A stretch of DNA of 55,956 nucleotides. Origin: Bacteroidales bacterium (lineage in GTDB: Bacteria; Bacteroidota; Bacteroidia; Bacteroidales; Tenuifilaceae). Below, one piece after another: positions 6,516 to 55,956 of this stretch. The position numbers and the translations under genes were made by a program. A model generated the notes under the pieces. That model made no database searches. It was not told the DNA's origin and saw only the letters and a list, made by a program, of their open reading frames with translations. Position 1 is the first letter of the stretch, and every line of letters begins with the position of its first letter. Where the stretch lies: positions 1 to 55,956 of the forward strand of contig JANYLA010000165.1 in assembly GCA_025361485.1 (NCBI GenBank), given 5' to 3'.

Positions 6516-7235
6516 CTACTTACCATTCACTTCCTCAAGAATATAACCTACCGTTGGAATACTAGTAATTCGTTGGCTAGCATCGTTCTTTAGATATTTA
6601 CGCAGTTTTGAGATAAACACATCGAGGCTGCGACCTGTAAAGTAATCGGAATTTCCCCAAATATCGAGCATTAGCGCCTCTCGCTTTACCAGTCTACCTT
6701 TGGATTTGCAAAGAATTTTAAGAATGTTCGACTCTTTTATTGTGAGCCTAGTTGTGGTATTGCCTTGAACTAAAATTTGCTTTTCGCAATCGAATAGATA
6801 ACAACCAATCCAAATCACCTCCTTTGATTCAACGGTTTTTGAATCCGTTTCTCGGCTAATACGGTTCATAATAGCCTTAACTCTGTAAAGTAATTCCTCC
6901 TCATCAAACGGTTTGGTGATATAATCATCGACACCAATATGAAAGCCTTTAATCTTATCCTCTTTCATAGAACGGGCAGAAAGAATAATGATAGGAATTT
7001 TAGCGTTAATCTCTTTGATCTTTCCAATAAGGGTAAAGCCATCCATTTTTGGAAGCATAATATCAATGATGCATAAATCATAAGAATTCAGCTGAAATCC
7101 CTTAAATCCCGATAATCCATCATTATAAAGTTTTATATCAAAACCTTGCGATTCGAGATAATCAACCAAAAGGAAACCAAGGTTCACATCGTCCTCAACT
7201 AGAAGTATACGAACCTTTTCGATTGTTGGTGTCAT
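6516..7235 (-). CDS. OmpR/PhoB-family response regulator
   Basis: The 239-residue protein has a receiver domain (about 5-120) with the acidic pair in VEDD, phospho-acceptor Asp58 in CIIDIMLP, Ser86 and Lys108 in TKPF. A C-terminal winged helix (about 140-235) ends in SLDVFISKLRKYL and TVGYILE. It is 24 bp downstream of the histidine kinase and surely partnered with it; the pair resembles Bacteroidota RprX/RprY-type systems. OmpR-type regulators bind direct repeats one helical turn apart, and such TAAC repeats lie in the divergent promoter region at 8557-8598 and again at 47541-47561. I infer that these are its sites and that the signal is metal or thiol stress. Confidence 0.93.
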   Translation of the reverse strand: MTPTIEKVRILLVEDDVNLGFLLVDYLESQGFDIKLYNDGLSGFKGFQLNSYDLCIIDIMLPKMDGFTLIGKIKEINAKIPIIILSARSMKEDKIKGFHIGVDDYITKPFDEEELLYRVKAIMNRISRETDSKTVESKEVIWIGCYLFDCEKQILVQGNTTTRLTIKESNILKILCKSKGRLVKREALMLDIWGNSDYFTGRSLDVFISKLRKYLKNDASQRITSIPTVGYILEEVNGK

Positions 7236-7259
7236 TTTGGGTTGTTGTTAGGTTTTTTT

Positions 7260-8522
7260 CTACTGGTTACTTTCCACTTTTCGCTTTTCACTTGTCACTT
7301 CTCGCTCAATCTCAATAACAAAAATACTTCCCTTTCCCTTAGTGCTCGAAACAGATATCTTCCCTCCTAGCCTATCAATAATGGTTTTTACGTGGAATAG
7401 CCCTAATCCAAACCCTTTTATATCGTGAGTATCGCCCTGTGGGATTCGGTAAAATCTTTCGAATATATTCTGTAGATGCTCAGACGAAATTCCAACCCCA
7501 TTATCAATGATTTCAATCATCAGATTTTTAGGACTTGCTTTTAAGTGAATATCTATTCGAGGTGATATATTGCAGTATTTAAGGGCGTTATCGACAATAT
7601 TACCTATGACAATATGTAGCTGATCGATGTTACTTCTAAGTATAAAATCATCACCCGATTTCAAAATTGAAACAACTCCCTGTTTTTCATCAATTTGAGC
7701 CTGAAGAGTTTCCACAACATCCTCAACGATCTTAGCCAAATCAACAGTTTCGAGGTTGGTTGGTAAAATGGAATCGCTCTGCGATGCTCTAAGCAACAGC
7801 TCAACCCTCTCCTTTAACCGTTTTTGCTCATCGCGAATAATTCCTGAATAGGATGAAAGTTTAGGGTCGTTCTCAATGAGCTCATTCTTTGCAAGCATGC
7901 TATTGGCAAAGCCAATATTGGTAAGCGGTGTATTGAACTCGTGGGTCATGTTATTGATAAAATTGCAAACATGCTCAGAAAGGAGCCTTTCACGCCGATA
8001 AAACCTATATATTAAGAGGAATGATAACGTTACAAGTATTACAAGAATGATAGAAGTTATGAATATGGTACCTACTTGGGCTAGGATAAAATCGCGTTTT
8101 TTTGGAAAGTTAATTTTCAGCTCATAACCCTTTTGCTGAAGTTTTTCGGCTAAATTGCTTGTAACATAGCAACCCTTTAAGGCTTTACCTGTTTCTTCCC
8201 TTAAATCAACGATTCCATAATTAAAATCTAGGTTGATTCCATAGAAGTTAAGATCGCTTTTGATGATAGAATCGAGATTTGCAGCCTGCTTAAGAGTTAC
8301 AGTCAATAATCTACACGATGAGCATTTCTTATTATTAGTACAACTTTTAAACTTTTCGATATTATTCTCGATTCGTTTAAGCGCCATACCAACGCTACGA
8401 TTAAATTGCGCTTCCTGCAATTTTGCCTCCTTCAAAATCCACGATATTTGTATCCCTACAAGAAATATTAGGCACGATAAAGTTGCAATAAGCAGGAGTA
8501 ACTGAAATCTAGATCTTTTCAT
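7260..8522 (-). CDS. sensor histidine kinase with Cys-containing periplasmic domain
   Basis: The 420-residue membrane kinase has helices at about 8-30 and 148-172 flanking a roughly 115-residue periplasmic domain. That domain carries Cys61, Cys67 and Cys70 (CTNNKKCSSC) and Cys118, which suggests sensing of metal or redox state. The cytosolic part has the HisKA motif NMTHEFNTPL (His194), an N-box (NIVDNALKY), DNGVGI and GFGLGL. It is the first gene of the operon with the OmpR-type regulator. The last dozen residues (EREVTSEKRKVESNQ) are encoded by a 7-bp-period simple repeat and look like a recent, probably non-functional extension. Confidence 0.92.
   Translation of the reverse strand: MKRSRFQLLLLIATLSCLIFLVGIQISWILKEAKLQEAQFNRSVGMALKRIENNIEKFKSCTNNKKCSSCRLLTVTLKQAANLDSIIKSDLNFYGINLDFNYGIVDLREETGKALKGCYVTSNLAEKLQQKGYELKINFPKKRDFILAQVGTIFITSIILVILVTLSFLLIYRFYRRERLLSEHVCNFINNMTHEFNTPLTNIGFANSMLAKNELIENDPKLSSYSGIIRDEQKRLKERVELLLRASQSDSILPTNLETVDLAKIVEDVVETLQAQIDEKQGVVSILKSGDDFILRSNIDQLHIVIGNIVDNALKYCNISPRIDIHLKASPKNLMIEIIDNGVGISSEHLQNIFERFYRIPQGDTHDIKGFGLGLFHVKTIIDRLGGKISVSSTKGKGSIFVIEIEREVTSEKRKVESNQ
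7267..7308. repeat. heptad repeat inside the 3' end of the kinase gene
   Basis: Six 7-mers in register (TTACTTT, CCACTTT, TCGCTTT, TCACTTG, TCACTTC, TCGCTCA on the plus strand) overlap the last codons of the histidine kinase. On the minus strand these are AAGTG-type heptads like those at 15761-15823. Confidence 0.75.
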
Positions 8523-8525
8523 ACA

Positions 8526-8533
8526 GCAAAAGT
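8526..8533 (-). promoter_or_regulatory. -7 element of the two-component operon
   Basis: The minus strand reads TACTTTTG, a full TAnnTTTG match, only a few bases before the kinase start codon. The region where a -33 box should lie is occupied by the TAAC repeat array, which suggests activator-dependent transcription. Confidence 0.4.
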
Positions 8534-8556
8534 AAAAAGGATTTGCTTCTGAATCT

Positions 8557-8598
8557 AATATTTAACATAACTATAACATGAATTAACGAGGATATAAC
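8557..8598. promoter_or_regulatory. phased TAAC repeat array, candidate response-regulator site
   Basis: TAAC occurs at 8563, 8568, 8574, 8584 and 8595. The set 8563/8574/8584/8595 is spaced 11, 10 and 11 bp, as for OmpR-family direct repeats. The first 21 bp (8557-8577, core TTAACATAACTATAAC) recur without mismatch at 47541-47561. The array lies between the divergent -7 boxes of the two-component operon and the Cys-rich gene. Confidence 0.6.
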
Positions 8599-8620
8599 AC
8601 GAGGTGAATTATGTAAAGGA

Positions 8621-8628
8621 TACTTTTG
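8621..8628 (+). promoter_or_regulatory. -7 element of the Cys-rich protein gene
   Basis: TACTTTTG matches TAnnTTTG fully and lies 31 bp before the ATG. The expected -33 position (about 8597-8600) has no TTTG and overlaps the last TAAC repeat, as expected for an activated promoter. Confidence 0.5.
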
Positions 8629-8658: not shown

Positions 8659-9057
8659 ATGAAAAGAAGAATTATTGTAATTGCTGCAAGTATCGTTGTT
8701 CTTGCGCTAATCGTTGTGGTTGGAATATCTGCACAAAGCGAAAAAACTGTTGCAAAAGCCCAAACTGAAGGAAATATGCCTGAGGGTTGCAAAGGATGCC
8801 CTAGCGCTTCAACCTGCTTAGATGTTACCACACCCGCTGATACTACTTCTTGTAAAGCAAAATGCGCCGATAAAAAAACTTGCGATAAAGAAAAGTGCGC
8901 AAAATGTGATAAAAAAGAAGCTTGTGCTAAGTCAGCTGATTGTGCTACAAAAGATTGCCCTCATAAATCTGCCGCATGTTGTGAAAAGAAAACCGATGCT
9001 CAAGGTTGCACAAAATCGGCTGATTGCAAAAAAGATTGTAAAAAGAAATCAAATTAA
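8659..9057 (+). CDS. membrane-anchored or secreted 16-cysteine protein
   Basis: I know no named family. The 132-residue protein has an N-terminal hydrophobic segment (about 4-24, signal or anchor) followed by a low-complexity Lys/Ala/Asp-rich region with 16 cysteines. These are mostly in CxxxC and CxxC spacings (GCKGC, CKAKC, CAKC), with one CC pair. The pattern resembles an exported metallothionein-like metal sink. It is divergent from the two-component system and followed, after a terminator-like hairpin, by a membrane ferredoxin, so the three form a likely functional unit. Metal binding is inferred from cysteine density alone. Confidence 0.85.
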   Translation: MKRRIIVIAASIVVLALIVVVGISAQSEKTVAKAQTEGNMPEGCKGCPSASTCLDVTTPADTTSCKAKCADKKTCDKEKCAKCDKKEACAKSADCATKDCPHKSAACCEKKTDAQGCTKSADCKKDCKKKSN

Positions 9058-9086
9058 TAGGTTAGGTTAGATTAGGTTTCTTATTG

Positions 9087-9115
9087 CCCCAGCATTTCAT
9101 TTCGCTGGGGTTTTT
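9087..9115 (+). terminator. terminator or attenuator between Cys-rich and ferredoxin genes
   Basis: CCCCAGC (9087-9093) pairs with GCTGGGG (9104-9110) around a 10-nt loop, followed by five T. It sits just upstream of the ferredoxin start and overlaps the upstream TTG (9084) that would be a longer start. It may reduce expression of the second gene relative to the first. Confidence 0.8.
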
Positions 9116-9125
9116 AATTAAAAAA

Positions 9126-10721
9126 ATGATGAAAAAATTCAAAATAAATCCTTACAGGCTGTTCTTTCAGTTCGCTATCATTGGGTTGCTTGTATACATG
9201 AGCATTCGATATTATACCGATAAAAACTACTTCCCCGACTTTGAGGCATACTGCCCGTTCGGTGGAATACAAGCGCTATCGAGCTACTTTGTAAATAATT
9301 CCCTAGCCTGCTCAATGACCAGCGCACAGATAGTTATGGGAATTATATTAATTGCCGTCATCGTTCTGGTTAGCAAACTATTTTGTTCATTTATCTGCCC
9401 AATCGGGACTATTTCAGAATGGATTGGAAGACTTGGAGAAAAGTATAAAATGCGTTACACCATATCAGGAATAGCCGACAGAGGATTACGCTCGCTAAAA
9501 TACATACTTCTATTCATCACTGTTTACTTTACCGTTACCTCAAGCGAGCTGTTCTGTAAAAAATTCGATCCCTATTATGCCGCAGTTACAGGATTCGATT
9601 CAGATGTGTCGATTATAATGGCAATATCAGCAATCGCTCTAGTTATAATCGGTTCATTCTACATCCGATTATTTTGGTGCAGATACGTTTGCCCGCTGGG
9701 TGCATTATCGAATATATTCCGATTCTTTTTACTTTTCATTGGATTAACGGGTTTATACACTGCCCTTACCTATTTTGGAATTAACATCCGCTTTATTTGG
9801 CTCCTTGCAGCTCTTTGTATTGCTGCCTACGCCCTTGAATTGCTGAGCATTGATAATAAAGTTTTTCCTTTCCTTAAAATAACAAGGAATACCGAAACCT
9901 GTACAAGCTGCCAAATCTGTACAAGAGCATGCCCTCAGGCAATTGATGTGGCATCGCAGAAAACGGTGAAGCATGTCGACTGTAATATGTGCGGCGATTG
10001 CATGCACGTTTGTCCTGAAAAGGATACCCTTGCAATCAATAAGAAAGGGAAGCAATGGTTACCGGCAATTATTCTTGTAGTGCTAATAACCATTGGAATT
10101 ATTATAGGTCAATCGTTTGAGGTTCCTACCATCTCACAATACTGGGGAGATATGACCACCAAAGATCAGATGAGCACTTACGAGCAATCGGGTTTAAAGA
10201 ATATCAAATGCTTCGGCAGCTCATCGAGCTTTGCCAATAAGATGAGAAAGGTTAAAGGGGTTGCCGGTGTTTCAACCTATGTTGGTACGCACACTGTTAA
10301 GATTTGGTTCAACCCTAGCGAAATTGATACGCTTAGCGTTCATAAATCAATCTTTGTTCCAGTAAAAGTTGCCATAAAAAAAGGATTAACAGAAACCGAT
10401 AGCGTGAGCATGTTCAACTTAAAGGTTGATAATTTTTTCGATCCATACGACACCAACTATCTAACAATGGTTCTTAAGCAGAACTCAATGATATTGGGGT
10501 TTACTTCCGAATTCGATTGCCCAGTTAAGATTACAATTTACACCTCAAATGATTCAACGATTACTGAAGAGACGATAAAGAATTTGGTTGAGCAAAAGCA
10601 AGTTGAGAAAACCAACTCTGATAATTCAATCCAATTGATTGATTTGAATTATAGGGTAGTAATAATTGAGAAAAGTTCTCAAACTATTAGCGGGCTTGAG
10701 TTCAACAATAGGATGAAATAG
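9126..10721 (+). CDS. NapH-like membrane ferredoxin with C-terminal HMA-like domain
   Basis: Read from the ATG at 9126 (an upstream TTG at 9084 lies in a terminator), the protein has 531 residues. It has about six membrane helices with two Fer4_5-type CxxxCP motifs (Cys87/Cys91 and Cys185/Cys189), then two [4Fe-4S] motifs: CTSCQICTRACP (Cys259-269) and CNMCGDCMHVCP (Cys286-296). After a further helix (about 311-328) comes a region (about 350-425) that looks like a heavy-metal-associated fold by its order of motifs, but its CxxC is reduced to a single Cys362 (KCFGSSSS). The N-terminal half suggests electron transfer between the quinone pool and a redox partner, as in NapH, NosR and CcoG. The HMA-like tail and the Cys-rich neighbour point to metal or thiol stress. 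The exact reaction is unknown. Confidence 0.8.
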   Translation: MMKKFKINPYRLFFQFAIIGLLVYMSIRYYTDKNYFPDFEAYCPFGGIQALSSYFVNNSLACSMTSAQIVMGIILIAVIVLVSKLFCSFICPIGTISEWIGRLGEKYKMRYTISGIADRGLRSLKYILLFITVYFTVTSSELFCKKFDPYYAAVTGFDSDVSIIMAISAIALVIIGSFYIRLFWCRYVCPLGALSNIFRFFLLFIGLTGLYTALTYFGINIRFIWLLAALCIAAYALELLSIDNKVFPFLKITRNTETCTSCQICTRACPQAIDVASQKTVKHVDCNMCGDCMHVCPEKDTLAINKKGKQWLPAIILVVLITIGIIIGQSFEVPTISQYWGDMTTKDQMSTYEQSGLKNIKCFGSSSSFANKMRKVKGVAGVSTYVGTHTVKIWFNPSEIDTLSVHKSIFVPVKVAIKKGLTETDSVSMFNLKVDNFFDPYDTNYLTMVLKQNSMILGFTSEFDCPVKITIYTSNDSTITEETIKNLVEQKQVEKTNSDNSIQLIDLNYRVVIIEKSSQTISGLEFNNRMK

Positions 10722-45066: not shown

Positions 45067-46470
45067 TTACTCAACCCCATCCTTTGCCTTTCCTCCTATT
45101 GCATACCAATCGATTTTCCGTGATAGGTACATTACCGAAGCAAGTATAATAAATAGACCTATACTTCCCATTAGTAATGCAAAATCCTGCATCTGAATTA
45201 AGATATAAAGGAATCCGTAAAGCAGTACCAAGATCGACGATAAAATTGCGGTTAGCCGATTATTATGGAAAATACTTTTCGAATAGGTTGCTATCATGAT
45301 AACTATCCCTGCGCTAGCCACTAAGTAGGCAATCCCAAATCCTATCTGCTCCGAAAGCGATAGCAGCAACAGATAAAACAAGCATAAGCTGAATCCGACT
45401 AGCACATACTGAATTGGATGAACCTTTAATTTTCGCATTATCTCAACAAAAAAGAATACGGTAAATGTGAGAGCAATGAATAGAATAGCATACTTCATCG
45501 AGCGTTCGGTAATTTGATAGGCTTCGATAGGCAAGAGGAGGCTAACCCCAAATGCCGATGACTGAAATTCAATTTCAGTATCGTTCCATTTCTGCGGAAA
45601 GTTTCTATTCAGCTCCAAAACTTTCCAATCGGCAGTAAATCCTCCTGATGAAACTTTTCTATTTTCAGGCAGAAAAGAACCATCGAAGCTCGGGTTTGGC
45701 CATGCGGAGGTAAGCTTGACAATAGTTTCCTTCCCAATTGGCACAAAGCTGATGCTTTTAGAGCCATTAAGCGATATTCCGAATGAGAAACGATACTCCT
45801 TAGCCAATGACTCCTCCTTCAAAGGCTTATTAATTGTAACGCCCGATTCAATCATTATCTCTTTTCTTTCACCATATTCATAATACGCCTCGTTAACCCT
45901 TGGTTGAGTTTTACCTACCATTTTAACCCCAGGCTCACAAGCCATCTCAGCATCGTTCCATTTGAATTTGATATCCTCCTTTATCCCACGCAAATCGGAT
46001 ATCCCAATGGTAATAAAGGCATCAGCCCATTTTATCTCATAATGCCTATCGCTAATATCAAGCTGAGGTGCTTTAAATACTCCGTCAACCTTTAAATTAG
46101 AGCTATAGACTGCCACTTCAAAAATCCCCCGCTTTCTTATCTCAGGATTCATTTCGCCTGCTACATTTAGGTTTTCGGGTAAGAAATAGGCCATATGCCT
46201 ATCTATATTTACTCGTTTATTATCCTTATCCAAATCGAATGTTTCATAAGGAATGGTAAGGATTGGACCTGTTAACCGCTGCTGAAAACCCCATTTTGAG
46301 CTAATCTCGGTTGTTGCCTCCTTTTGCCTTGTTTGTCTCTCCGAAACAAGTGACATTATCATTGCCATAGGAATTAGGAGCAATAATGTTAGAATAGAAA
46401 TTGCTGCTACTTTAATTATCACCGCATTTCTTTCTGTGAACGATTGATTCTCGTGTGTCATAATTTTCAA
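45067..46470 (-). CDS. creD: inner-membrane protein CreD
   Basis: The 467-residue protein has one N-terminal helix (about 17-43), a large periplasmic beta domain (about 50-320, starting at WGFQQRLTGPILTIPYE), and four to five C-terminal helices. This is the CreD layout. CreD is induced by envelope stress in several bacteria; its activity is unknown. It is the third gene of an operon with a membrane protein and a winged-helix regulator, and it has a copy of the CTTTG-N5-CAAAG operator in front of it. Confidence 0.88.
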   Translation of the reverse strand: MKIMTHENQSFTERNAVIIKVAAISILTLLLLIPMAMIMSLVSERQTRQKEATTEISSKWGFQQRLTGPILTIPYETFDLDKDNKRVNIDRHMAYFLPENLNVAGEMNPEIRKRGIFEVAVYSSNLKVDGVFKAPQLDISDRHYEIKWADAFITIGISDLRGIKEDIKFKWNDAEMACEPGVKMVGKTQPRVNEAYYEYGERKEIMIESGVTINKPLKEESLAKEYRFSFGISLNGSKSISFVPIGKETIVKLTSAWPNPSFDGSFLPENRKVSSGGFTADWKVLELNRNFPQKWNDTEIEFQSSAFGVSLLLPIEAYQITERSMKYAILFIALTFTVFFFVEIMRKLKVHPIQYVLVGFSLCLFYLLLLSLSEQIGFGIAYLVASAGIVIMIATYSKSIFHNNRLTAILSSILVLLYGFLYILIQMQDFALLMGSIGLFIILASVMYLSRKIDWYAIGGKAKDGVE

Positions 46471-46493
46471 TTTTAGTTTAATTAATTAAAAGT

Positions 46494-46510
46494 ACTTTGT
46501 TTTTCAAAGT
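46494..46510. promoter_or_regulatory. operator copy in front of creD
   Basis: ACTTTG-TTTTT-CAAAGT is a perfect inverted repeat in the 56-bp gap between the regulator gene and creD. The second site of the same form is at 47485-47501. Flanks are also shared (AAAGT before, TA-rich after). It is a probable binding site of the winged-helix protein. Confidence 0.6.
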
Positions 46511-46526
46511 ATATATTCAAAAAAAA

Positions 46527-46826
46527 TTATCGACCTGATTTTATTAACTTCTCTAAGGCTGAAAGGTGCTCGTTGAAAGCCTTTCTACCGCCAATTGTAG
46601 CTCTATAGCTTGTGTTTGACTTCTTATTAAGAAACTGCTTTTTCACCTCAACATAGACCTCACCCTCCAACGTTTTCATATGGCTAGCTAAATTACCATC
46701 GGTAATATTGAGTGTTTCCTTTAACGCATTAAACTCAACCCAATCATTAACCATTAGCATCGACATGATGCCAAGGCGGATTCGGTTCTCAAAATGCTTA
46801 TTTAGATTTGTTATCAAATCTTTCAT
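46527..46826 (-). CDS. winged-helix transcriptional regulator of the creD operon
   Basis: The 99-residue protein is a single winged-helix domain (RIRLGIMSMLMVNDWVEF, then DGNLASHMKTLEGEVYVEVKKQF and the wing NTSYRATIGGRKAF). This is the small ArsR/MarR-like type often found with creD in Bacteroidota. It overlaps the upstream membrane-protein gene by 29 bp. Inverted repeats CTTTG-N5-CAAAG before the operon and before creD are its probable targets, suggesting negative autoregulation. Confidence 0.85.
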   Translation of the reverse strand: MKDLITNLNKHFENRIRLGIMSMLMVNDWVEFNALKETLNITDGNLASHMKTLEGEVYVEVKKQFLNKKSNTSYRATIGGRKAFNEHLSALEKLIKSGR

Positions 46827-47466
46827 ACTTCCAATACATTTTTAAACCGTAAATAATATGCAAAACTCCAAATCCGAATGCCCAGAAAAGCAGACCATAT
46901 CCAACGAATATCGAACCTGCTAATCCGAGAACTATCTCACAAATCCCTAAATATCGTATATCGTCAATCGTATATTTGCTTGCATTAATAAGCGCTAAAC
47001 CGTAAAAGATTAAGGTAATAGGGGCTATTAAATAGATTTGCCTGTGGTAGAGTAAAACCAAACAGAATAATCCTCCAGTAACTAGTGGTATAAATAGATT
47101 AATGACCATTCGTTTGGCTGAACTATTCCAGAAAGACAATCCCTTCTTTTTCGCATTCCGAGCAGTAAAAATAATTCCGAAGAAAATGGCTAAAAATAAT
47201 GTTAGAAAACCATCAATGAATATAAAAGCAAGGAACCTTGAGAACTCAGCTCCGCTGATTAAATCCTCTTTTAAAAAGATACCATGATTATAATACCGTC
47301 CGTAAAAAAAATCTTGCTGATATAAAAATACCGACAAAGCTCCAAGCAAAGCGCAACAACCAGCAAATATGCCTGAAAGTCCGCTTAGCGAAATAAATCG
47401 CGATGAACGTTCCATGATTGACCTTATTTCATGCAAGTCCTGTAAATGCTCGTTCTTTTGGTCCAT
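46798..47466 (-). CDS. hypothetical membrane protein of the creD operon
   Basis: The 222-residue protein has a soluble helical start (LHEIRSIMERSSRFISLSGLSG) and about six membrane helices. It regularly heads this three-gene group in Bacteroidota, but its function is unknown. It overlaps the regulator gene, so the two are translationally coupled. The promoter in front overlaps an operator, and the gene is divergent from the metal island. Confidence 0.8.
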   Translation of the reverse strand: MDQKNEHLQDLHEIRSIMERSSRFISLSGLSGIFAGCCALLGALSVFLYQQDFFYGRYYNHGIFLKEDLISGAEFSRFLAFIFIDGFLTLFLAIFFGIIFTARNAKKKGLSFWNSSAKRMVINLFIPLVTGGLFCLVLLYHRQIYLIAPITLIFYGLALINASKYTIDDIRYLGICEIVLGLAGSIFVGYGLLFWAFGFGVLHIIYGLKMYWKYERFDNKSK

Positions 47467-47540: not shown

Positions 47541-47561
47541 AATATTTAACATAACTATAAC
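47541..47561. promoter_or_regulatory. second copy of the 21-bp TAAC box
   Basis: The 21 bases are identical to 8557-8577. TAAC occurs at 47547, 47552 and 47558, the outer two 11 bp apart. The box ends 9 bp before the -33 element of the metal-island promoter, the usual place for an activator. Confidence 0.65.
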
Positions 47562-47569
47562 GCCTTTTC

Positions 47570-47601
47570 TTTGTTTCACACTATAAAACAGTATAGCTTT
47601 G
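47570..47601 (+). promoter_or_regulatory. promoter of the metal island
   Basis: TTTG (47570-47573), a 20-bp spacer and TAGCTTTG (47594-47601) form a consensus Bacteroidota promoter 46 bp before the first gene of the island. Confidence 0.75.
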
Positions 47602-47646
47602 CAAAAGTATTAGAACAAATTTTCTTTTACTGCGTTATAGTTAATA

Positions 47647-48066
47647 ATGAAAAAAACTCTCTCCATACTATTCGCTTCTCTAATTCTCGTTTCGGGAATG
47701 CACCTCTCTCTTGCCACTCATTACTGTGGTGGAAAGGTAGCTGCATCAAGGATTTCTTTTAGCGAGCAGAAGGCAGATTGCGGAATGGAAACAGGAACAT
47801 CAGAATGTCCAACTCATAGCAAGAATCAAGTTAATAACGATTGCTGCAAAAACGTTGTATCTGTATTTTCAATTGAAAAGAACTACAGCCCTTCAACTTT
47901 TGAGTTTACACAATTTTCATTAAAGGTATTGCACGTTTTCGATGTACCTACTACCATTGAAAGGCTACTTGCAAGTTCACCTCTACTAAATTCAAATGCC
48001 AGTCCGCCTGACATTTTTAAGGCTAGTGCTGTCAGCCTAGCTAGCATTTGTGTTTTCCGTATTTGA
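47647..48066 (+). CDS. HYC_CC_PP-type secreted protein
   Basis: The 139-residue protein has a signal peptide (about 1-23) and the three marks for which this Bacteroidota family is named: HYC in THYCGGK, CC in NDCCKN and PP in SPPDIFK. The four to five Cys and several His suggest metal binding; the family is often found beside copper genes. It is the first gene after the consensus promoter and the TAAC box, and so probably the leader of the metal island. Confidence 0.83.
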   Translation: MKKTLSILFASLILVSGMHLSLATHYCGGKVAASRISFSEQKADCGMETGTSECPTHSKNQVNNDCCKNVVSVFSIEKNYSPSTFEFTQFSLKVLHVFDVPTTIERLLASSPLLNSNASPPDIFKASAVSLASICVFRI

Positions 48067-48168: not shown

Positions 48169-48768
48169 ATGAAAACTTATAATATTATTAGTCTTCTTGT
48201 ATTTGTATTTGTGATTACATCAACTGCAAATGCTCAAAACAAACTCATAAATCAAAGTGGAGTGTATAAATCATTCTCTGATTTTCAAGCAAGGAAGCTC
48301 GATTTATCGGTTGATGTTACCAAGGAGAAGCATAAAATCAAAGTGCATGATTTTATCAATAAAACGGAAATTGATGTTATCCATAACGACAAGAGGTACA
48401 CCTTCAAGAAAAAAGATATCTACGGGATTCATGATGTAAAAGGAGATGATTACAGGTTCTACAATGACCAAGAATATCTAATTGCGCAAGCTGACACCAT
48501 TTATATCTATACAAAATCCGAGGATATAAACTCGACCAATGGTAAAAACAGGCAAACAAAGCATATTACAGAGTATTTCTTCAGCAAGATAGGGGATTCT
48601 GATATACTAAAGTTGACAGCAGACAATCTTAAAAAATCATTTCCCGAAAACCACAAAATGCATGATGCATTGGATATGATGTTCAAGAGAAATAATGATT
48701 TAGTTGAATACGATAAGTTTCATAAATCATATAAGGTAATACGGTTCTTAAAGGAAGAATTGAAATAA
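48169..48768 (+). CDS. secreted protein of unknown function, paralogue 1
   Basis: The 199-residue protein has a signal peptide (about 1-22, TSTANAQ) and a paralogue at 50515-51111. Shared blocks are SGVYKSFSDFQARKLD, EKHKIKVHDF, KKKDIYGI and FPENHKMHDALD. I know no named domain; similar unnamed proteins occur near metal genes in Bacteroidota. It is all-soluble after the signal, Lys-rich, with conserved His in the C-terminal NHKMHDA motif that might bind metal. It is the second gene in the island. Confidence 0.78.
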   Translation: MKTYNIISLLVFVFVITSTANAQNKLINQSGVYKSFSDFQARKLDLSVDVTKEKHKIKVHDFINKTEIDVIHNDKRYTFKKKDIYGIHDVKGDDYRFYNDQEYLIAQADTIYIYTKSEDINSTNGKNRQTKHITEYFFSKIGDSDILKLTADNLKKSFPENHKMHDALDMMFKRNNDLVEYDKFHKSYKVIRFLKEELK

Positions 48769-48805
48769 TTTTCTTAAAACTATAAATAACTAAAAATCAA
48801 AGGCG

Positions 48806-49459
48806 ATGAAAAGTAAAATGATTTTAATGGCAATTTTTGCGATGACAATTTTTGCTGCTTGTAAGAAGAATGATATGATGAATGACACCTTGGGTGTTGA
48901 TACTAAGAAGTACCAACAGAGCCTAAGCATCGACTACTCCAATGCTTTGTCAAACCATAATGCATTAAATTCAGCAAACGTATCAACAGCTGACCATAAT
49001 GCACATCATGGCGGTTCAGGTACTACCACTGCATCAATTGACACATCATACTTCAAAATGATGTTCACCAAGAATGATAGCCTATTTTCCGAAGATTTTT
49101 ACAAGTTTTGTAAGGATATGATGGAGAATAGCGGCATGATGAGTACTTCCGATGGTATGATGGGCAACAACAGCGGCATGATGGGTGGAAATGGAGGAAT
49201 GATGGGTGGAAATGGTGGTATGATGAATGGAACCACTATGGGTAGTATGGGGGACATGAATGCAATGATGAGTTATATGGATAGCATTCACAGTTCAAGC
49301 CAAACCATGATGAATCCCGATTATATGAAAACGGATAGCTTGATGCACAACCAGATGACCCAATGCAAGATGATGGTTGCTCAAACAGATAGCATCGAAA
49401 CCATTTTTGGGAATATGCAGATGCTTCGCAGTAATCATAAATCGATGCATAGTAAGTAA
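48806..49459 (+). CDS. Met- and His-rich lipoprotein, candidate copper binder
   Basis: The 217-residue protein has a lipoprotein signal ending in IFAACKKND and about 36 Met residues. Many are MM pairs in a heptapeptide repeat GMMGGNG (about 119-137), and a His patch (DHNAHHGG) lies before it. Exported Met-rich proteins usually bind Cu(I) or Ag(I). The 21-bp DNA repeat that encodes the motif is nearly perfect, so repeat number may vary between strains. It lies between two small genes in the island. Confidence 0.8.
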   Translation: MKSKMILMAIFAMTIFAACKKNDMMNDTLGVDTKKYQQSLSIDYSNALSNHNALNSANVSTADHNAHHGGSGTTTASIDTSYFKMMFTKNDSLFSEDFYKFCKDMMENSGMMSTSDGMMGNNSGMMGGNGGMMGGNGGMMNGTTMGSMGDMNAMMSYMDSIHSSSQTMMNPDYMKTDSLMHNQMTQCKMMVAQTDSIETIFGNMQMLRSNHKSMHSK

Positions 49460-49505
49460 TGATGATTTAAATCAATGATTTTTAAAATCTTAACAGTAAA
49501 TAAAC

Positions 49506-49634
49506 ATGAAAAAAATTGTAATTTTATTTCTTTTCGGAATAACAATACTCACTGGTGCATCATCCTGTGCAAGCACATCACATACTGGTCACAGTTCGAG
49601 TAATGGACAACACAGTGGAGGTAGTTGTCATTAA
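49506..49634 (+). CDS. 42-residue lipoprotein ending in SCH
   Basis: This short gene has a clear lipoprotein signal (GITILTGASSCAS) and a mature part of only 22 residues rich in Ser, Gly and His, ending GGSCH. The protein at 53704-53988 ends in a similar SGCH. A Cys-His end on a flexible arm could pass metal between envelope partners; that is inference. It lies 46 bp after the Met-rich lipoprotein gene. Confidence 0.72.
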   Translation: MKKIVILFLFGITILTGASSCASTSHTGHSSSNGQHSGGSCH

Positions 49635-49670
49635 TAAAAATAGATTAACAAATTTTAAAAACAAATCAAC

Positions 49671-50024
49671 ATGAAAACAATAAAATTCTTAACAGTTAGT
49701 GTTTTAGCACTATTTTTTAGTATTGGCGTTTACTCTCAAGACCATAGCATGCATATGGCTACTAAAACTGAAAGTTTTAAAGTATCGGGGAAATGTGGCA
49801 TGTGTAAGTCCCGCATTGAGAAAGCAGCAAAAATTGAAGGTGTAACCAAGGCGGAATGGGATGCCGATAAGCAGCTCATAACCATTACCTACATGCTCAA
49901 CATGGTTAAAATTGATGATATACAAAAGAAGATTGCTGCAGTGGGGCACGATACCGAAAAGTTTAAAGCCGATGATAAAATTTACGATAAACTCCCCGGT
50001 TGCTGCAAGTATCGTAAAAAGTAA
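49671..50024 (+). CDS. exported HMA-domain metallochaperone
   Basis: The 117-residue protein has a signal peptide (about 1-22) and one heavy-metal-associated domain: FKVSGKCGMCKSRIEKAAKI with Cys42 and Cys45, then ITYMLNMVKIDDI. It ends in GCCKYRKK, a second Cys pair. It should bind Cu(I) or a similar soft metal in the periplasm and may deliver it to the RND pump. His and Met in DHSMHM before the domain add ligands. Confidence 0.88.
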   Translation: MKTIKFLTVSVLALFFSIGVYSQDHSMHMATKTESFKVSGKCGMCKSRIEKAAKIEGVTKAEWDADKQLITITYMLNMVKIDDIQKKIAAVGHDTEKFKADDKIYDKLPGCCKYRKK

Positions 50025-50048
50025 GTCTAACTAATAAAAAAACTACTT

Positions 50049-50270
50049 ATGAAGAAGTTGATAGTTTCCCTCGTATTGGTAATTTCAGTCTCAGCAATTG
50101 CATATATCTATTTTAGAAACATTAGTAAAAGAAGAGTTGCAAAGAAGTATGAATATACGTTGCGAGGCCAAGGTAACTGTTGCAAGTCAACTGAAGTAGA
50201 CCAAAATAAATTGAAGAGTTGCCCCTATCTCGACTCAATAAAAACGAAACAAACAACCTGTAAAAAATAG
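50049..50270 (+). CDS. small membrane-anchored Cys protein
   Basis: This 73-residue protein has an N-terminal helix (about 4-24) and a short basic outer part with QGNCCKS, SCPYL and a final TTCKK, five Cys in all. I know no family. It lies 24 bp after the HMA gene and should be co-transcribed. A role in binding or reducing metal is likely from context only. Confidence 0.7.
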   Translation: MKKLIVSLVLVISVSAIAYIYFRNISKRRVAKKYEYTLRGQGNCCKSTEVDQNKLKSCPYLDSIKTKQTTCKK

Positions 50271-50399
50271 CAGGAATTCATATAAAAAGGCGGATAATCC
50301 ATTAGTTGTGCTATTAGGTTAGTTAGGTTAAGTTAGGTTTTATTGTGTTTAAATAGGGCATACCAAACCTTGCATCAAACCTTAATAGTGGCTTTAAAA

Positions 50400-50441
50400 G
50401 TGATGTGAAATGATACATATCATTCTCATTTTCGACATCAC
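50400..50441. promoter_or_regulatory. nested dyads upstream of paralogue 2
   Basis: The inner dyad AATGATA-CA-TATCATT (50409-50424) lies within outer arms GTGATGT (50400-50406) and ACATCAC (50435-50441). A -7-like TAAATTTC (50458-50465) follows, so a protein bound to the dyads would cover the -33 zone. The inner dyad is similar in style to Fur-type sites, but the regulator is unknown. Confidence 0.5.
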
Positions 50442-50514
50442 CAGTTCAAAAAAACTGTAAATTTCGCTTTAAAATGATGAAAGTTTTTTAAATGTACCTA
50501 ATAACTTAAACGCA

Positions 50515-51111
50515 ATGAAAACAATTAGTAGTACGACGAAATGGATTATCGCCTCCTTGTGCCTCGTAGCTTTTTGCTCAAGACCAGTTATCGCTCAAAA
50601 AAGCGGTGTATTTAGAACGTATGCTGATTTTCAAGCTGGAAAAATGGATTATGGTATCAACTGTCAAACCGAGAAGCATAAAATTAAGCTAAATGAGTTT
50701 CTAGGAAAAGATTTCATTACCATAATACATGATGGGAAACCATACAATTTAAAGAAAACAGAAATATGGGGTTACCAGCTATGCGATGAAAAGGTTGTCC
50801 GTTTTCAAGGTAATGACCATTTTTCTTTAGACGATAAAGGTATTTTATGGGTTTACTCAAAACAATTCGAGAAAATGGTATCACCCAAAAGCGGAACAAA
50901 ATCTGTTACATCTTACTTTTTTAGCACAGGTGGCGATGGTGAAATCAAGGAATTAACTCTGATGAACCTCAAAGCAGCTTTTCCTGACAACCACAAGCTA
51001 CACGATGCCATTGATGCTCAGTTTAAAACAGATGCTTCTTTAATTGAGTTCGACCAATATCATAAGCATTACAAAATCAATCATTTTCTGGAAGGTCAGG
51101 AGTTAAAGTAG
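50515..51111 (+). CDS. secreted protein of unknown function, paralogue 2
   Basis: The 198-residue protein has a signal peptide (about 1-27, SRPVIAQ) and the same blocks as the protein at 48169-48768: SGVFRTYADFQAGKMD, EKHKIKLNEF, YNLKKTEIWGY and FPDNHKLHDAID. Unlike paralogue 1 it has two Cys in the middle (NCQTEK and QLCDEK). Having two copies in one metal island suggests a direct part in metal handling. It seems to have its own promoter and operator at 50400-50465, so it may start a second transcript that continues through the signalling genes. Confidence 0.78.
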   Translation: MKTISSTTKWIIASLCLVAFCSRPVIAQKSGVFRTYADFQAGKMDYGINCQTEKHKIKLNEFLGKDFITIIHDGKPYNLKKTEIWGYQLCDEKVVRFQGNDHFSLDDKGILWVYSKQFEKMVSPKSGTKSVTSYFFSTGGDGEIKELTLMNLKAAFPDNHKLHDAIDAQFKTDASLIEFDQYHKHYKINHFLEGQELK

Positions 51112-51147
51112 TTTTAGTGAGGTTATAAATAGAGGATGTAAAAGTTT

Positions 51148-51180
51148 ATCCGTGCCACAGCGTGATAACGTGGTACGGAT
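51148..51180 (+). other. hairpin in front of the histidine kinase
   Basis: ATCCGTGCCAC (51148-51158) and GTGGTACGGAT (51170-51180) pair over 11 bp with one G-U pair and an 11-nt loop. It ends 22 bp before the ATG at 51203 and overlaps the GTG of a longer possible frame. It may tune translation or be a repeat remnant. Confidence 0.5.
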
Positions 51181-51202
51181 AGAATCCTCAAACGAGAACA
51201 AA

Positions 51203-52213
51203 ATGATAAAAGAACATAGATATTTAATCATAGAAATATTCATTGGAGCATTGGTCGGTTTTGTTTTTTTACATCCTGTCTCTATGCTAATAGCAGGTGG
51301 TGTAAATGAATTTCATCAGTACTTTAAAGATGGTTTTAATCATATGCTCTCTCCGATGGCATGGTATTTTACTTTGATTGGCATTGTTTTAGCCACAATA
51401 ACAGCATTCACTAGAATCGCTATTCAAAATAAAAATATTTTGCTCAAAAAACAGCATAAGGAATTGAACAAAACAAAACTTGAATTTGAGCAGCAAAACC
51501 AAAAATTAATCAAACTCGATGCTGACAAAAATCTCCTCCTATCTATCATCGGACACGATTTAAAGAATCACTTTTATTCCACGCTTGGATTTTCAACATT
51601 GTTGCACGCAAATATTCGTGATTATGATATAAAAAGGATTGAGAAACAAGTAAGATACATTAATGGCTCTGCCCAGCAAGCAATAAACCTGCTCGAAGAC
51701 TTATTGATGTGGTCTAACAGCCAATCAGGGAAACTTCTCTTTAACCCTGAACAATTCAACCTCACAGCTATGAGTTTAGACGTTTTGGAAACAATGAATT
51801 TTAATGCTTTTGCTAAAAATATATCCTTAACTCATTTTGCATCACATGAAATTGATATATTTGCTGACAAAAACATGATAAAGGCTATTCTAAGAAACCT
51901 TGTTTCGAATGCAATTAAGTTCACTGGTGAAGGGGGAAGGATTAATGTATTCATTGAGCAGCATAATTCAAATGCAGTATTATCGGTAGCCGATAATGGG
52001 GTTGGAATCGAATCCGAAAGAATACCAAAACTTTTTGATATAGCCAAGGACAGAACAAGAGTTGGTACTGCTAATGAGAAAGGAACAGGATTAGGGTTGT
52101 TGCTCTGTAAAGACTTTATTGAAATGCATGGCGGCAAAATTTGGGTTGACAGTGAATACAAGAAGGGAAGTAATTTTAGGTTCTCAATACCCTTGCAAAG
52201 CAGAAAGAATTGA
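51203..52213 (+). CDS. histidine kinase with a short two-helix membrane domain
   Basis: Read from the ATG at 51203 (a GTG at 51152 lies in a hairpin), the protein has 336 residues. Two helices (about 8-30 and 50-70) carry the motifs HPVSMLIAGG and SPMAWYFTLIGIVLA, and a coiled coil (about 75-108) follows. HisKA has SIIGHDLKNHF (His118), and the ATPase has NLVSNAIKF, DNGVGI and GTGLGL. There is no receiver and no regulator gene beside it. The membrane domain is about two thirds identical by eye to that of the next gene, a PP2C phosphatase. Confidence 0.88.
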   Translation: MIKEHRYLIIEIFIGALVGFVFLHPVSMLIAGGVNEFHQYFKDGFNHMLSPMAWYFTLIGIVLATITAFTRIAIQNKNILLKKQHKELNKTKLEFEQQNQKLIKLDADKNLLLSIIGHDLKNHFYSTLGFSTLLHANIRDYDIKRIEKQVRYINGSAQQAINLLEDLLMWSNSQSGKLLFNPEQFNLTAMSLDVLETMNFNAFAKNISLTHFASHEIDIFADKNMIKAILRNLVSNAIKFTGEGGRINVFIEQHNSNAVLSVADNGVGIESERIPKLFDIAKDRTRVGTANEKGTGLGLLLCKDFIEMHGGKIWVDSEYKKGSNFRFSIPLQSRKN

Positions 52214-52279
52214 CACACCATTTGATTGATTTGGCAGAAAATATCTAACTCATTTATAACATAAAACGCTGAAAGTAAA

Positions 52280-53413
52280 ATGAAGAAAGAGTACAAATAT
52301 TTTATTATTGAAATAGTTATCGGTGCATTGATTGGCTTCTTTTTTCTGCATCCACTATCAATGCTAATTAATGGTGGCATGGATGCTTTAAAGTACTGTT
52401 TTAAAGACAACCTTCACCACTTAATTAATTCTCCGATGGCATGGTATTTCACGTTAATTGGTATTGTATTGGCAGCAATAACAGCAATTTCACGTATTAC
52501 CATACAGAAAAAAAACGTTTTACTCGAAAAACAGAAGAGGGATATTCATGAAAAAAACTTGGAGCTAGAACAGCAGAAAGAAGAGATACAAGCACAAGCC
52601 GAGAATCTAATGGTGGCTAACAATGAAATCACATCACAGAAAGAACTTTTAGCAAAACAACATCATAACCTAACCTCCAGTATTCGGTATGCCAAGACAA
52701 TCCAAACGGCAATGCTTGTACCAGAGGAAACAATTAAACAAATACTTCCCAACTCATTTGTTCTATTCATGCCTCGTGATATTGTCAGTGGAGACTTTTA
52801 TTGGATTGCAGAAAAGAGTGGATTTATATTCATATCAGCAATAGATTGTACAGGACACGGTGTACCCGGGGCGTTTATGTCAATGGTAGGTAACCAGCTA
52901 TTGAATCAGATAATTTTAGAAATGGATATCACCGAGACCGACCAAATCCTTATTGAGATGAACAAGGGGATTAAAAAGTTTCTGAAGCAGGATGAGACCA
53001 ATGCAAGGGATGGGATGGATATGTCTATTTGCAGGATTGATTTTAAACTTAATGAAATTCAATTCTCTGGGGCTGCCAACGATATGTATGTTGTTCAAAA
53101 TGAAGAGCTAATAGAAATTGAAGCAGATAGAAAGCATATTGGAGGTGTTATAAATGATAAGACCTCCTTTACAAAAGCAATAATTCAGCTAAATCAGCCG
53201 ACAACTCTATACCTCTTTACCGATGGTTATTCAGACCAAAGCAACAACAAGGATTTTAAGAAATTGGGTAAAAAGAACTTCAGAAATCTATTGAAAGGCA
53301 TACATAACCAGAGCCTTGAAGAACAAAAATCAAATTTGATTAAGGAACACAACCAGTGGAAGGAAACTCAAAAACAGACTGATGACATCCTTCTTATAGG
53401 TATAAAATTATAA
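52280..53413 (+). CDS. SpoIIE-type PP2C phosphatase with the same membrane domain
   Basis: The 377-residue protein has two helices (about 8-30 and 53-72), a long coiled coil (about 76-128) and a SpoIIE-like PP2C domain with metal-binding Asp162 (GDFYW), Asp179 (IDCTGHGVPGAFMSM) and late DGYSDQ and DDILLIGI motifs. PP2C proteins of this type act on Ser/Thr-phosphorylated partners such as anti-sigma antagonists. No such partner is encoded nearby. Its membrane domain matches the preceding kinase, so both probably sense the same signal or interact. Confidence 0.87.
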   Translation: MKKEYKYFIIEIVIGALIGFFFLHPLSMLINGGMDALKYCFKDNLHHLINSPMAWYFTLIGIVLAAITAISRITIQKKNVLLEKQKRDIHEKNLELEQQKEEIQAQAENLMVANNEITSQKELLAKQHHNLTSSIRYAKTIQTAMLVPEETIKQILPNSFVLFMPRDIVSGDFYWIAEKSGFIFISAIDCTGHGVPGAFMSMVGNQLLNQIILEMDITETDQILIEMNKGIKKFLKQDETNARDGMDMSICRIDFKLNEIQFSGAANDMYVVQNEELIEIEADRKHIGGVINDKTSFTKAIIQLNQPTTLYLFTDGYSDQSNNKDFKKLGKKNFRNLLKGIHNQSLEEQKSNLIKEHNQWKETQKQTDDILLIGIKL

Positions 53414-53431
53414 ACTTAAACAAATATAGCT

Positions 53432-53677
53432 ATGAAGAAACTTATTCTTTCGTTATCAATTGCAGCATTATTCGTATTTGCTGTATCGTGTAGTGGTGGT
53501 TCGTCCAATGCTCATAAGCATTCTAGTATGGAGAATACCAAAACGGTGGTTTACTACACCTGTACCATGCATCCAGAAGTACACTTGGATAAACCCGGTG
53601 ATTGTCCCAAATGTGGCATGACGCTGGTGAAAGCTGAAGAGAATGTATCCGATACTACAAAAATGAATCATCAATAA
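53432..53677 (+). CDS. lipoprotein with heavy-metal-binding (HMBD) domain, copy 1
   Basis: The 81-residue protein has a lipoprotein signal (FVFAVSCSGG) and a heavy-metal-binding domain of the type found at the start of CusB and CopA-like proteins: YYTCTMHPEV, then KPGDCPKCGMTLV. The three Cys, His and Met are ligands for Cu or similar. It may hand metal to the efflux pump encoded 0.8 kb on. It starts 18 bp after the phosphatase gene. Confidence 0.87.
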   Translation: MKKLILSLSIAALFVFAVSCSGGSSNAHKHSSMENTKTVVYYTCTMHPEVHLDKPGDCPKCGMTLVKAEENVSDTTKMNHQ

Positions 53678-53703
53678 TTTGAATAGATAAACAACTCAAA
53701 TAA

Positions 53704-53988
53704 ATGGTAAGCATGTACAAATACAAATCCTCCTTATTCCTTGCATTTATTGTTTCAATAACCCTATTGTCAAGTTGTAGTAAACACTTAACAGCGAGTA
53801 GAAAGGAAAAGCAATACTACTATACTTGTCCAATGCACTACAATGATATTTATTATGAGCCGGGTAAATGTCCAAAATGTGGGATGAAGCTAGAAGCATG
53901 GGATATAGAAAATTTGCCTAAGAATAGCACTTCGAGTTCACACAGCGGGCATTCGGGTTCAGGAAATCACACCAGTGGTTGTCATTAA
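53704..53988 (+). CDS. lipoprotein with heavy-metal-binding domain, copy 2
   Basis: The 94-residue protein repeats the plan of the preceding gene: lipoprotein signal (ITLLSSCSKH), HMBD core YYYTCPMHYNDI then EPGKCPKCGMKLE, and a His/Ser/Gly-rich tail ending TSGCH, like the short lipoprotein at 49506-49634. ATG at 53713 is also a possible start and gives a better signal peptide. The tail would add metal ligands on a flexible arm. Confidence 0.85.
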   Translation: MVSMYKYKSSLFLAFIVSITLLSSCSKHLTASRKEKQYYYTCPMHYNDIYYEPGKCPKCGMKLEAWDIENLPKNSTSSSHSGHSGSGNHTSGCH

Positions 53989-54040
53989 TTATAAATTAAC
54001 GAGATAGATTTCCATATACTAACATTTAAAACAACAGATT

Positions 54041-54412
54041 GTGAGAAAAGTATATATTATTCTTTTGGCAATATGCATGAGCATTACATTCTCATCATGT
54101 TGTATGATGATGTCGGAACACATGTCTAGTAGTAAACACGATGGGCATAATCATAATGGTTCAGAAGTGCTTATTGACCCAGTTTGTGGTAACCAAGTTG
54201 GGAAAGAAAGCTCATTCACTTTTGACTATCAGGGGACTATCTACTACTTTGATACGGAGCAGTGCTTGACAGTGTTTAAAAATAGTCCAGACCATTTTTT
54301 GCAAAAAAAGAGTGAAGAAAATCATCATAAAACTTGGAAAAGGGTTGGAATGATTGGTGGCGCAGTTGTAATGTCAGCAATGATGGTTTTTATGATATTC
54401 AATGTCCTGTAA
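54041..54412 (+). CDS. YHS-domain protein with C-terminal membrane helix
   Basis: The 123-residue protein starts with GTG. It has a signal or lipoprotein segment (MSITFSSCCMMM), a His patch (HDGHNHN), a YHS domain (IDPVCGNQVGKESSFTFDYQ, then YYFDTEQCLTVFKNSPDHF) and a C-terminal helix (about 103-121). YHS domains bind copper or other soft metals and often accompany P-type or RND pumps. It is the last gene before the pump, 36 bp away. Confidence 0.85.
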   Translation: MRKVYIILLAICMSITFSSCCMMMSEHMSSSKHDGHNHNGSEVLIDPVCGNQVGKESSFTFDYQGTIYYFDTEQCLTVFKNSPDHFLQKKSEENHHKTWKRVGMIGGAVVMSAMMVFMIFNVL

Positions 54413-54448: not shown

Positions 54449-55956
54449 ATGTTCAATCGACTTGTCAAATACTTTCTCGAAAACCGGCTAGTTACATTCA
54501 TATTCCTTATTTCCTTTGTGGTTTTTGGAATAGTGTATACCCCTTTCAACTGGCATACAGGAGCACTGCCACGTGACCCAATACCTGTTGATGCTATTCC
54601 CGATATTGGCGATAATCAGCAAATCGTTGCCACCGAATGGATGGGCCGTTCGCCGAAGGACATTCAGGATCAAGTTACTTATCCCCTATCAACCGCTTTG
54701 CTTGGCATTCCAGGTGTTAGCACTGTGCGTAGCACATCAATGTTCGGGATGTCGTTTATCTATGTCATATTTAAGGATAAGGTTGAGTTTTACTGGAGCC
54801 GTTCCCGAATCCTTGAAAAGCTCAACTCACTTCCCTCAGGTACTCTTCCAACTGGAGTAACTCCTACTTTAGGGCCTGATGCAACAGCACTTGGACAAAT
54901 ATTCTGGTACACCCTCGAAGGTAGAGACACAAAGACTGGAAAACCAAATGGCGGTTGGGATCCACAAGAACTTCGAACAATTCAAGATTTTTATATTAAG
55001 TATGGCTTGTCCACTGCTGAAGGTGTTTCGGAAGTTGCATCGGTAGGCGGATTCATTAAAGAGTATCAGGTTGATATTAATCCCGACGCCCTAAAGGCTT
55101 TCAACGTCTCTGTTATGGATGTGATGAATGCTGTACGGAATAGTAACCTTGATATTGGTGCTGAGACGGTTGAACTGAACAATGTTGAATACATCATTCG
55201 GGGATTGGGGTATGTCAAAAATTTGGATGACCTCGAAGGCTCTGTCATTGCAGTTCGAAATAATGTTCCTGTGCGTATCAAAGATGTTGCCCATACCTCC
55301 TTTGGACCTGCTACCCGACGGGGTGGTATTGATAAAGATGGCGTTGAAGCAGTCGGTGGAGTAGTTGTTGCTCGATATGGTTCAAACCCCATGGAGGTGA
55401 TTGGTAACCTAAAAGAAAAAATAAAAGAGATTGATGCTGGTTTGCCTCAAAAAACCTTGGCTGATGGAAGTATTTCAAAAGTTTCAATTGTTCCATTTTA
55501 CGATAGAACAAGTTTGATTAAGGAAACCATAGGAACTCTCGAGTCGGCTTTATCACACGAAATTCTAATCAGCATAATTGTAATCATAATTCTCGTTCTT
55601 AATCTAAGAGCTTCGCTGATTGTTGCAGGACTACTTCCCATTGGAGTTCTAATGACTTTTATTCTGATGCATTTCTTTGGGGTAGATGCAAATATTGTAG
55701 CATTATCGGGTATTGCTATTGCAATTGGTGTAATGGTCGATATTGGGATTGTGGATGTGGAGAATATTCTACGGCATCTGGAGATGCCAGAAAACCACGG
55801 GATCAGGGGTAAAAAATTAATGTCCGTAATATATAATGCAACCACTGAAGTACGCGATGCCGTAGTCACATCCATTGCTACAACCATCGTCAGCTTCCTT
55901 CCTGTTTTTGCGATGCAGGCAGCAGAAGGAAAGTTGTTTCACCCACTGGCATTTAC
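54449..55956 (+). CDS. cusA: CusA/CzcA-family heavy-metal RND pump, 3' end cut by the window
   Basis: The visible 502 residues start with FNRLVKYFLENRLVTF, the classic first helix of heavy-metal RND pumps. The porter domain follows with LGIPGVSTVRSTSMFGMSFIYVIF, and helices 2-4 with GIAIAIGVMVDIGIVDVEN and its helix-4 Asp. A full pump has about 1,030-1,050 residues, so half is missing on the right. It should export Cu(I)/Ag(I), or Co/Zn/Cd, from the periplasm with CusB and CusC partners, probably encoded beyond the window. The metal-binding Met triad lies in the missing part, so the exact metal is undecided; Met-rich neighbours favour copper. Confidence 0.9.
   Translation, partial: MFNRLVKYFLENRLVTFIFLISFVVFGIVYTPFNWHTGALPRDPIPVDAIPDIGDNQQIVATEWMGRSPKDIQDQVTYPLSTALLGIPGVSTVRSTSMFGMSFIYVIFKDKVEFYWSRSRILEKLNSLPSGTLPTGVTPTLGPDATALGQIFWYTLEGRDTKTGKPNGGWDPQELRTIQDFYIKYGLSTAEGVSEVASVGGFIKEYQVDINPDALKAFNVSVMDVMNAVRNSNLDIGAETVELNNVEYIIRGLGYVKNLDDLEGSVIAVRNNVPVRIKDVAHTSFGPATRRGGIDKDGVEAVGGVVVARYGSNPMEVIGNLKEKIKEIDAGLPQKTLADGSISKVSIVPFYDRTSLIKETIGTLESALSHEILISIIVIIILVLNLRASLIVAGLLPIGVLMTFILMHFFGVDANIVALSGIAIAIGVMVDIGIVDVENILRHLEMPENHGIRGKKLMSVIYNATTEVRDAVVTSIATTIVSFLPVFAMQAAEGKLFHPLAF

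Follow-up and report, generated by a model that had tools for sequence, protein, structure and literature searches.

The window (the whole 55,956-nucleotide stretch of DNA analysed here) carries an identical 21-bp box, AATATTTAACATAACTATAAC, at positions 8557-8577 and 47541-47561, both on the + strand, which is predicted to be a pair of half-sites of TTAACA type, with an 11-bp spacing, in the operator of an OmpR-family response regulator. One regulator, predicted to be that encoded beside the first position (locus 1), very probably binds this box; the second position (locus 2) lies upstream of an island of metal-related genes. In the proposed mechanism the histidine kinase of locus 1 (7260-8522) would use a Cys cluster in its periplasmic region to detect a thiol-binding metal, with Cu(I) or Ag(I) the likeliest, or alternatively would respond to thiol stress through its periplasmic cysteines, and would phosphorylate the regulator (6516-7235). 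Dimers of the regulator would then occupy, on one face of the helix, TTAACA direct repeats spaced by 10-11 bp. The four half-sites of locus 1 would serve to activate the genes for a Cys-rich protein and a polyferredoxin, and probably the regulator genes too, and the two of locus 2, which are nearer the -7 element by one helical turn, would help to activate the promoter of the metal island.

Taken as a whole, this explanation, with a metal-sensing kinase acting through the regulator and its half-sites to activate both loci, is considered likely. It builds on directly observed sequence, spacing, conservation, promoter anchoring and clade-wide linkage of regulator and operator, and from these we infer binding by the regulator, activation as the sign of control and the nature of the metal or other inducer. 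A wider proposal, held with middling confidence, is that these genes belong to a phylum-wide and apparently undescribed Bacteroidota module, in which a Cys-cluster kinase, an OmpR-family regulator and a near-invariant four-half-site operator would control a secreted metallothionein-like Cys-rich protein, with individual lineages adding the polyferredoxin, Cus efflux, a TonB receptor with HMA, or DUF4395 proteins.

The repeated box and its two loci

The first-pass annotation had reported the 21-base identity of the two positions and had judged it very unlikely to arise by chance, and on both points it was right, the match being exact. Among 60 dinucleotide-shuffled versions of the window, no exact direct repeat exceeded 19 bp and the longest was usually of 15-17 bp, so that none reached 21, and other exact repeats of similar length in the window are few and mostly local tandem or coding. 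The 15-bp core TAACATAACTATAAC, with the layout TTAACA-N5-ATAAC of a half-site pair with an 11-bp period, has exactly two exact copies in the 3.49-Mb genome. When up to two mismatches were allowed, there were 15 genomic matches against 69 for a reversed-pattern control, the genome-wide scans being pattern searches only, and those mismatched matches that were inspected are mostly intragenic.

At locus 1 the box contains half-site 1 (TTAACA, 8562-8567) and half-site 2 (ATAACA, 8573-8578), the last base of the latter (8578) lying just beyond the 21-mer. Going further than the annotation had, the analysis placed the box within a complete operator of four half-sites (8562-8599, + strand), with TAAC at 8563, 8574, 8584 and 8595 and a spacing of 11/10/11 bp, which adjoins the response-regulator gene and recurs through Bacteroidota. 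This array has a divergent kinase/regulator pair (6516-8522, - strand) on one side and the Cys-rich/polyferredoxin unit (8659-10721, + strand) on the other. The proposed box binder is the OmpR-family response regulator (6516-7235, - strand), with Response_reg (PF00072, receiver) and Trans_reg_C (PF00486, winged-helix output) domains, both over cut-off, and half-sites in tandem, spaced by roughly a helical turn, stand near its predicted target promoters. Judged by its sequence, it is RprY-related yet falls in a separate clade. The accompanying membrane histidine kinase (7260-8522, - strand; HisKA and HATPase_c) has the Cys cluster CTNNKKCSSC in its periplasmic sensor region, with residues C61 and C70 invariant in a 6-way alignment.

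The primary sigma factor consensus in Bacteroides is -33 TTTG and -7 TAnnTTTG (PMC7366714); a -7 element is present at both loci and the -33 element only at locus 2. The Cys-rich/polyferredoxin promoter has its -7 element (TACTTTTG, 8621-8628, + strand) 44 bp from the end of the box and lacks a -33 TTTG, and the fourth half-site stands near the usual -33 position. The lack of the -33 TTTG would be expected of an activator-dependent promoter and, with the fourth half-site in its place, of an activator contacting the polymerase directly. On the - strand, TACTTTTG at 8527-8534 is a possible -7 element of the kinase/regulator promoter, similar to elements found in genus genomes G001, G003 and G004; it reads back towards the kinase (8534-8527), which suggests autoregulation. 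The possible -7 is very close to the kinase ATG (window 8522-8534) and the transcript may therefore be leaderless. The first gene behind the operator (8659-9057, + strand) codes for a small secreted Cys-rich protein of 132 aa, metallothionein-like by composition, which matched no Pfam or NCBIfam family and has an equivalent behind the operator in most orthologous loci. It is followed by a co-directional gene for a NapH/NosR-like polyferredoxin membrane protein (9126-10721, + strand), the longer ORF of which begins at 9084.

The locus 2 operator (box 47541-47561, + strand) has two half-sites only, TTAACA (47546-47551) and ATAACG (47557-47562), and is upstream of the full promoter of an HYC/HMA/HMBD/YHS/CusA island. 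This promoter has a -33 element, TTTG (47570-47573, + strand), 20 bp before the -7 element TAGCTTTG (47594-47601, + strand), which is itself 33 bp from the end of the box. The box-to--7 distances of 44 and 33 bp thus agree with those first noted, as does their difference of one helical turn, exactly 11 bp. The box was also correctly placed just before the -33 element, but the gap between them is 8 bp and not 9.

The first gene of the island (47647-48066, + strand) encodes an HYC_CC_PP family protein (NF047658, 61.5 bits against a cut-off of 28). The rest (48169-54412, + strand) includes genes for two related 198-199-aa proteins and a Met/His-rich protein, an HMA protein (49671), a kinase-like and a SpoIIE-like protein (51152 and 52280), two HMBD proteins (53432 and 53704) and a YHS protein (54041). 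The promoter at the box presumably transcribes the whole island, for which the label 'copper' would derive only from gene content. At its end is a CusA/CzcA-family RND pump (54449-55956, + strand; PF00873, best match TIGR00914), of which the contig end leaves only about half the gene, with a score of 429.5 of 701 bits against TIGR00914; it is 93% identical to a complete 1280-aa CusA situated right behind box and HYC in G003.

The same assembly has a second CusA/CusC/CusB and HMA cassette (L093, G000:C67:33000-51061), whose contig ends inside CusA, so that its upstream region, with any box, lies beyond the contig. Joining the end of the window contig to C67 in order to complete CusA was rejected, the two ends being homologous and clearly different with no exact overlap, and this difference points to two copies or strain variants. 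The kinase-like and SpoIIE-type phosphatase-like proteins (51152-53413) have similar N-terminal membrane regions and share an exact 20-bp stretch. There is also an inverted 9-mer, CTATAACGC / GCGTTATAG, one arm of which lies in the box (47554-47562) and the second immediately ahead of the HYC start codon (about 47632-47640); the HYC gene of G003 is likewise preceded by GCGTTATAG.

Conservation and distribution

All five genomes of the genus retain the unit of kinase, regulator, Cys-rich protein and polyferredoxin, and both the locus 1 box (5/5) and the locus 2 box (5/5) are conserved upstream of the orthologues. Across the five genomes the pairwise identity at locus 1 averages 95% for the four half-sites, 74% for the spacers and 62% for the upstream flank, and at locus 2 it is 96% for the box as against 50% upstream and 56% between the box and -7, with the second TAAC always 32 bp from -7 (5/5). 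The genes that follow the locus 2-type box differ, being HYC-CusA-CusC-CusB-HMA in G003 and an HYC-like protein, a TonB-dependent receptor and HMA in G002, G004 and G001. G001 has the divergent neighbour gene of locus 2 with neither box nor metal operon beside it, and its metal operon is on another contig with its own box; the box is thus detached from the divergent gene and tied to the metal operon.

A promoter-anchored pattern, TTAACANNNNNWTAAC-N20-46-TANNTTTG, occurs at three sites in the 3.49-Mb genome (reversed control 0), which runs counter to the concern that many copies might lie elsewhere, and at 71 sites in 28 regulator-bearing genomes, compared with 18 for the reversed control. The three sites of this genome, all conserved in the genus, are the two boxes and a Pho-type site upstream of a PiT phosphate transporter gene. 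The first-pass proposal of one regulon joining the Cys-rich/ferredoxin unit to the copper-type island is therefore supported within the genus by the scarcity of copies and by conservation alike, with two reservations: 'copper' comes from gene content only, and beyond the genus HYC metal operons are not generally linked to the box. There, the box precedes HYC operons in 3/16 cases in regulator-bearing genomes and 3/55 in those without the regulator, so that a rule by which HYC operons carry it wherever the regulator exists is unsupported and the metal-operon link is patchy. In another family, the two-site layout recurs in G368 ahead of HYC-HMA-TonB receptor genes, which is an exception and not the rule. 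Two half-sites 22 bp before -7 were also seen upstream of DUF4395 membrane protein genes in another family (L250, G368:C36; L251, G306:C7), and these genes are possible further members of the regulon.

Orthologues were drawn from two sources, 393 Bacteroidales genomes (24 genomes at E<=1e-72) and a collection of named genomes. Among 82 loci with an adjacent kinase, some of which are the same record twice so that the counts are not fully independent, the divergent region has at least three phased half-sites in 65 and at least four in 54, the number per array in those 65 being 3-6. At least three phased half-sites were found in none of the reverse strands and in 0/1640 shuffles. In most loci the first TAAC and the -7 element are 57-59 bp apart. 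Arrays are also present, when read by hand, at loci where automatic parsing missed or misassigned the regulator (L131, L136, L140, L149 and L150). In a maximum-likelihood tree one clade (100/97) contains all array-bearing regulators, with arrays of at least three phased half-sites in 68 of its 80 rows, some of the exceptions being cut by contig ends. By contrast, the sister group that contains RprY showed no array in the examined region of any of its 23 rows (11 of them fully examined and 12 being control rows with short flanks only).

The gene behind the operator mostly codes for a small secreted protein with approximately 3-12% Cys, and in a subset of loci for other proteins, some with a CxxCH motif. 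A Cys cluster is present in most kinase orthologues, and among the nearer ones 34/36 have at least two cysteines in the sensor region. The regulon centres on the Cys-rich protein, to which the genus of the window seems to have added the Cus-type island, and the regulator and tag unit recurs across much of Bacteroidota. Its cultured carriers include Geofilum rhodophaeum HF401 and Alkaliflexus imshenetskii DSM 15055.

Alternative explanations

The PiT site noted above raises the question of phosphate. It reads TTAACATTAAYTTAACAYTAA in 5/5 genus genomes (L245, G000:C131:37816-37881, and L246-L249), is Pho-box-like and has half-sites (TTAACATTAACTTAACATTAA) with the sequence and period of those in the boxes; such sites also stand before PiT or PhoU-like genes in same-family relatives without the regulator (L334-L338, L340). 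From its sequence it is probably best read as a Pho box for PhoB. The presence of similar TTAACA-N5-TTAACA sites at phosphate genes, even where the regulator is missing, indicates that the half-site is not exclusive and that another OmpR-family regulator reads a similar site; since it is common to OmpR-family regulators, specificity must lie in spacers, flanks or site number. It is nevertheless improbable that the two boxes are themselves Pho boxes, with both loci answering to phosphate and not to metals, as the four-half-site operator tracks the clade of the regulator and adjoins its gene, the genes behind both boxes are Cys-rich/ferredoxin or metal genes and none is phosphate-related (only the PiT site fits), and the flanks and spacer of both boxes are unlike those of the PiT site.

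A better case exists for thiol or redox stress as the signal, for instance through disulphide formation in the sensor, with metals as one cause. The sensor bears cysteines, its target is Cys-rich, and the polyferredoxin in the same unit would, like the Cys-rich protein, be a redox part; this reading is doubtful but deserves some weight, the coupling to HYC, HMA, HMBD, YHS and CusA genes in the genus speaking for metal sensing instead. The locus 2 box could also belong to the divergent unit of 222-aa, winged-helix and CreD proteins (45067-47466), next to which the metal island would lie by accident, given that it sits in the divergent intergenic region and that this neighbour is kept in 5/5 genomes. 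This is highly improbable, as the half-sites are oriented towards the metal side, at a fixed distance from its -7, and within the genus it is refuted by G001, where the neighbour is without a box and the relocated metal operon has one. That the two boxes are identical by chance or as a spread repeat element is a negligible prospect despite the AT-rich sequence and the short motif; the shuffles and the conservation with fixed promoter spacing refute it, and there are only two genomic copies.

Relation to described systems

A search of the open literature gave nothing relevant on a Bacteroidota copper two-component operator or on HYC_CC_PP, and binding-site motif terms were not found in two papers on Porphyromonas gingivalis RprY. 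The module is provisionally regarded as undescribed, judging from the open literature. Metal sensing in Bacteroidota is little mapped, with no described equivalent found in the open literature, and a defined regulator, operator and target set can now be tested, also in cultured strains. From this set a possible role emerges for many Cys-rich secreted proteins that lack annotation, and, the geometry of the operator being fixed, regulons would become predictable from sequence across the phylum.

By its sequence, the regulator appears to work like CusRS/CopRS and to use direct repeats of the PhoP/WalR type, being a member of none of these families. Like CusRS, CopRS and SilRS of Proteobacteria, the system has an OmpR-family regulator, a membrane kinase, and a CusA/CzcA-family pump and HMA/HMBD proteins as predicted targets. 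However, regulator and kinase score far under the curated CusR, CusS and cztR_silR_copR models (the regulator reaching 111.2 of 420 bits for CusR PRK09836 and 129.9 of 279.2 bits for CopR/SilR TIGR01387, both under cut-off), the operator is built from TTAACA direct repeats in tandem, a secreted Cys-rich protein is the core target, and the pump lies away from the regulator genes. RprY of the Bacteroidota RprXY system (NF051850) is the best NCBIfam match of the regulator at 251.7 bits, but this is under the cut-off of 370, the regulator is in a separate tree group, and the genome of the window has its own RprY at C10. The TTAACA half-site and 11-bp period are shared with the boxes of PhoP/PhoB and WalR (YycF), predicted YycF sites being, for example, TTAACACTACCTTAACA (PMC5405149), whereas here the regulator clade and targets are different and four sites spaced 11/10/11 are fixed relative to a Bacteroidota promoter. 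TTAACA repeats were also observed in the divergent upstream regions of paralogous kinase/regulator pairs (L258 and L259 in G122 and G222, and L252 in G320), so that this style of operator may be wider than the clade of the regulator.
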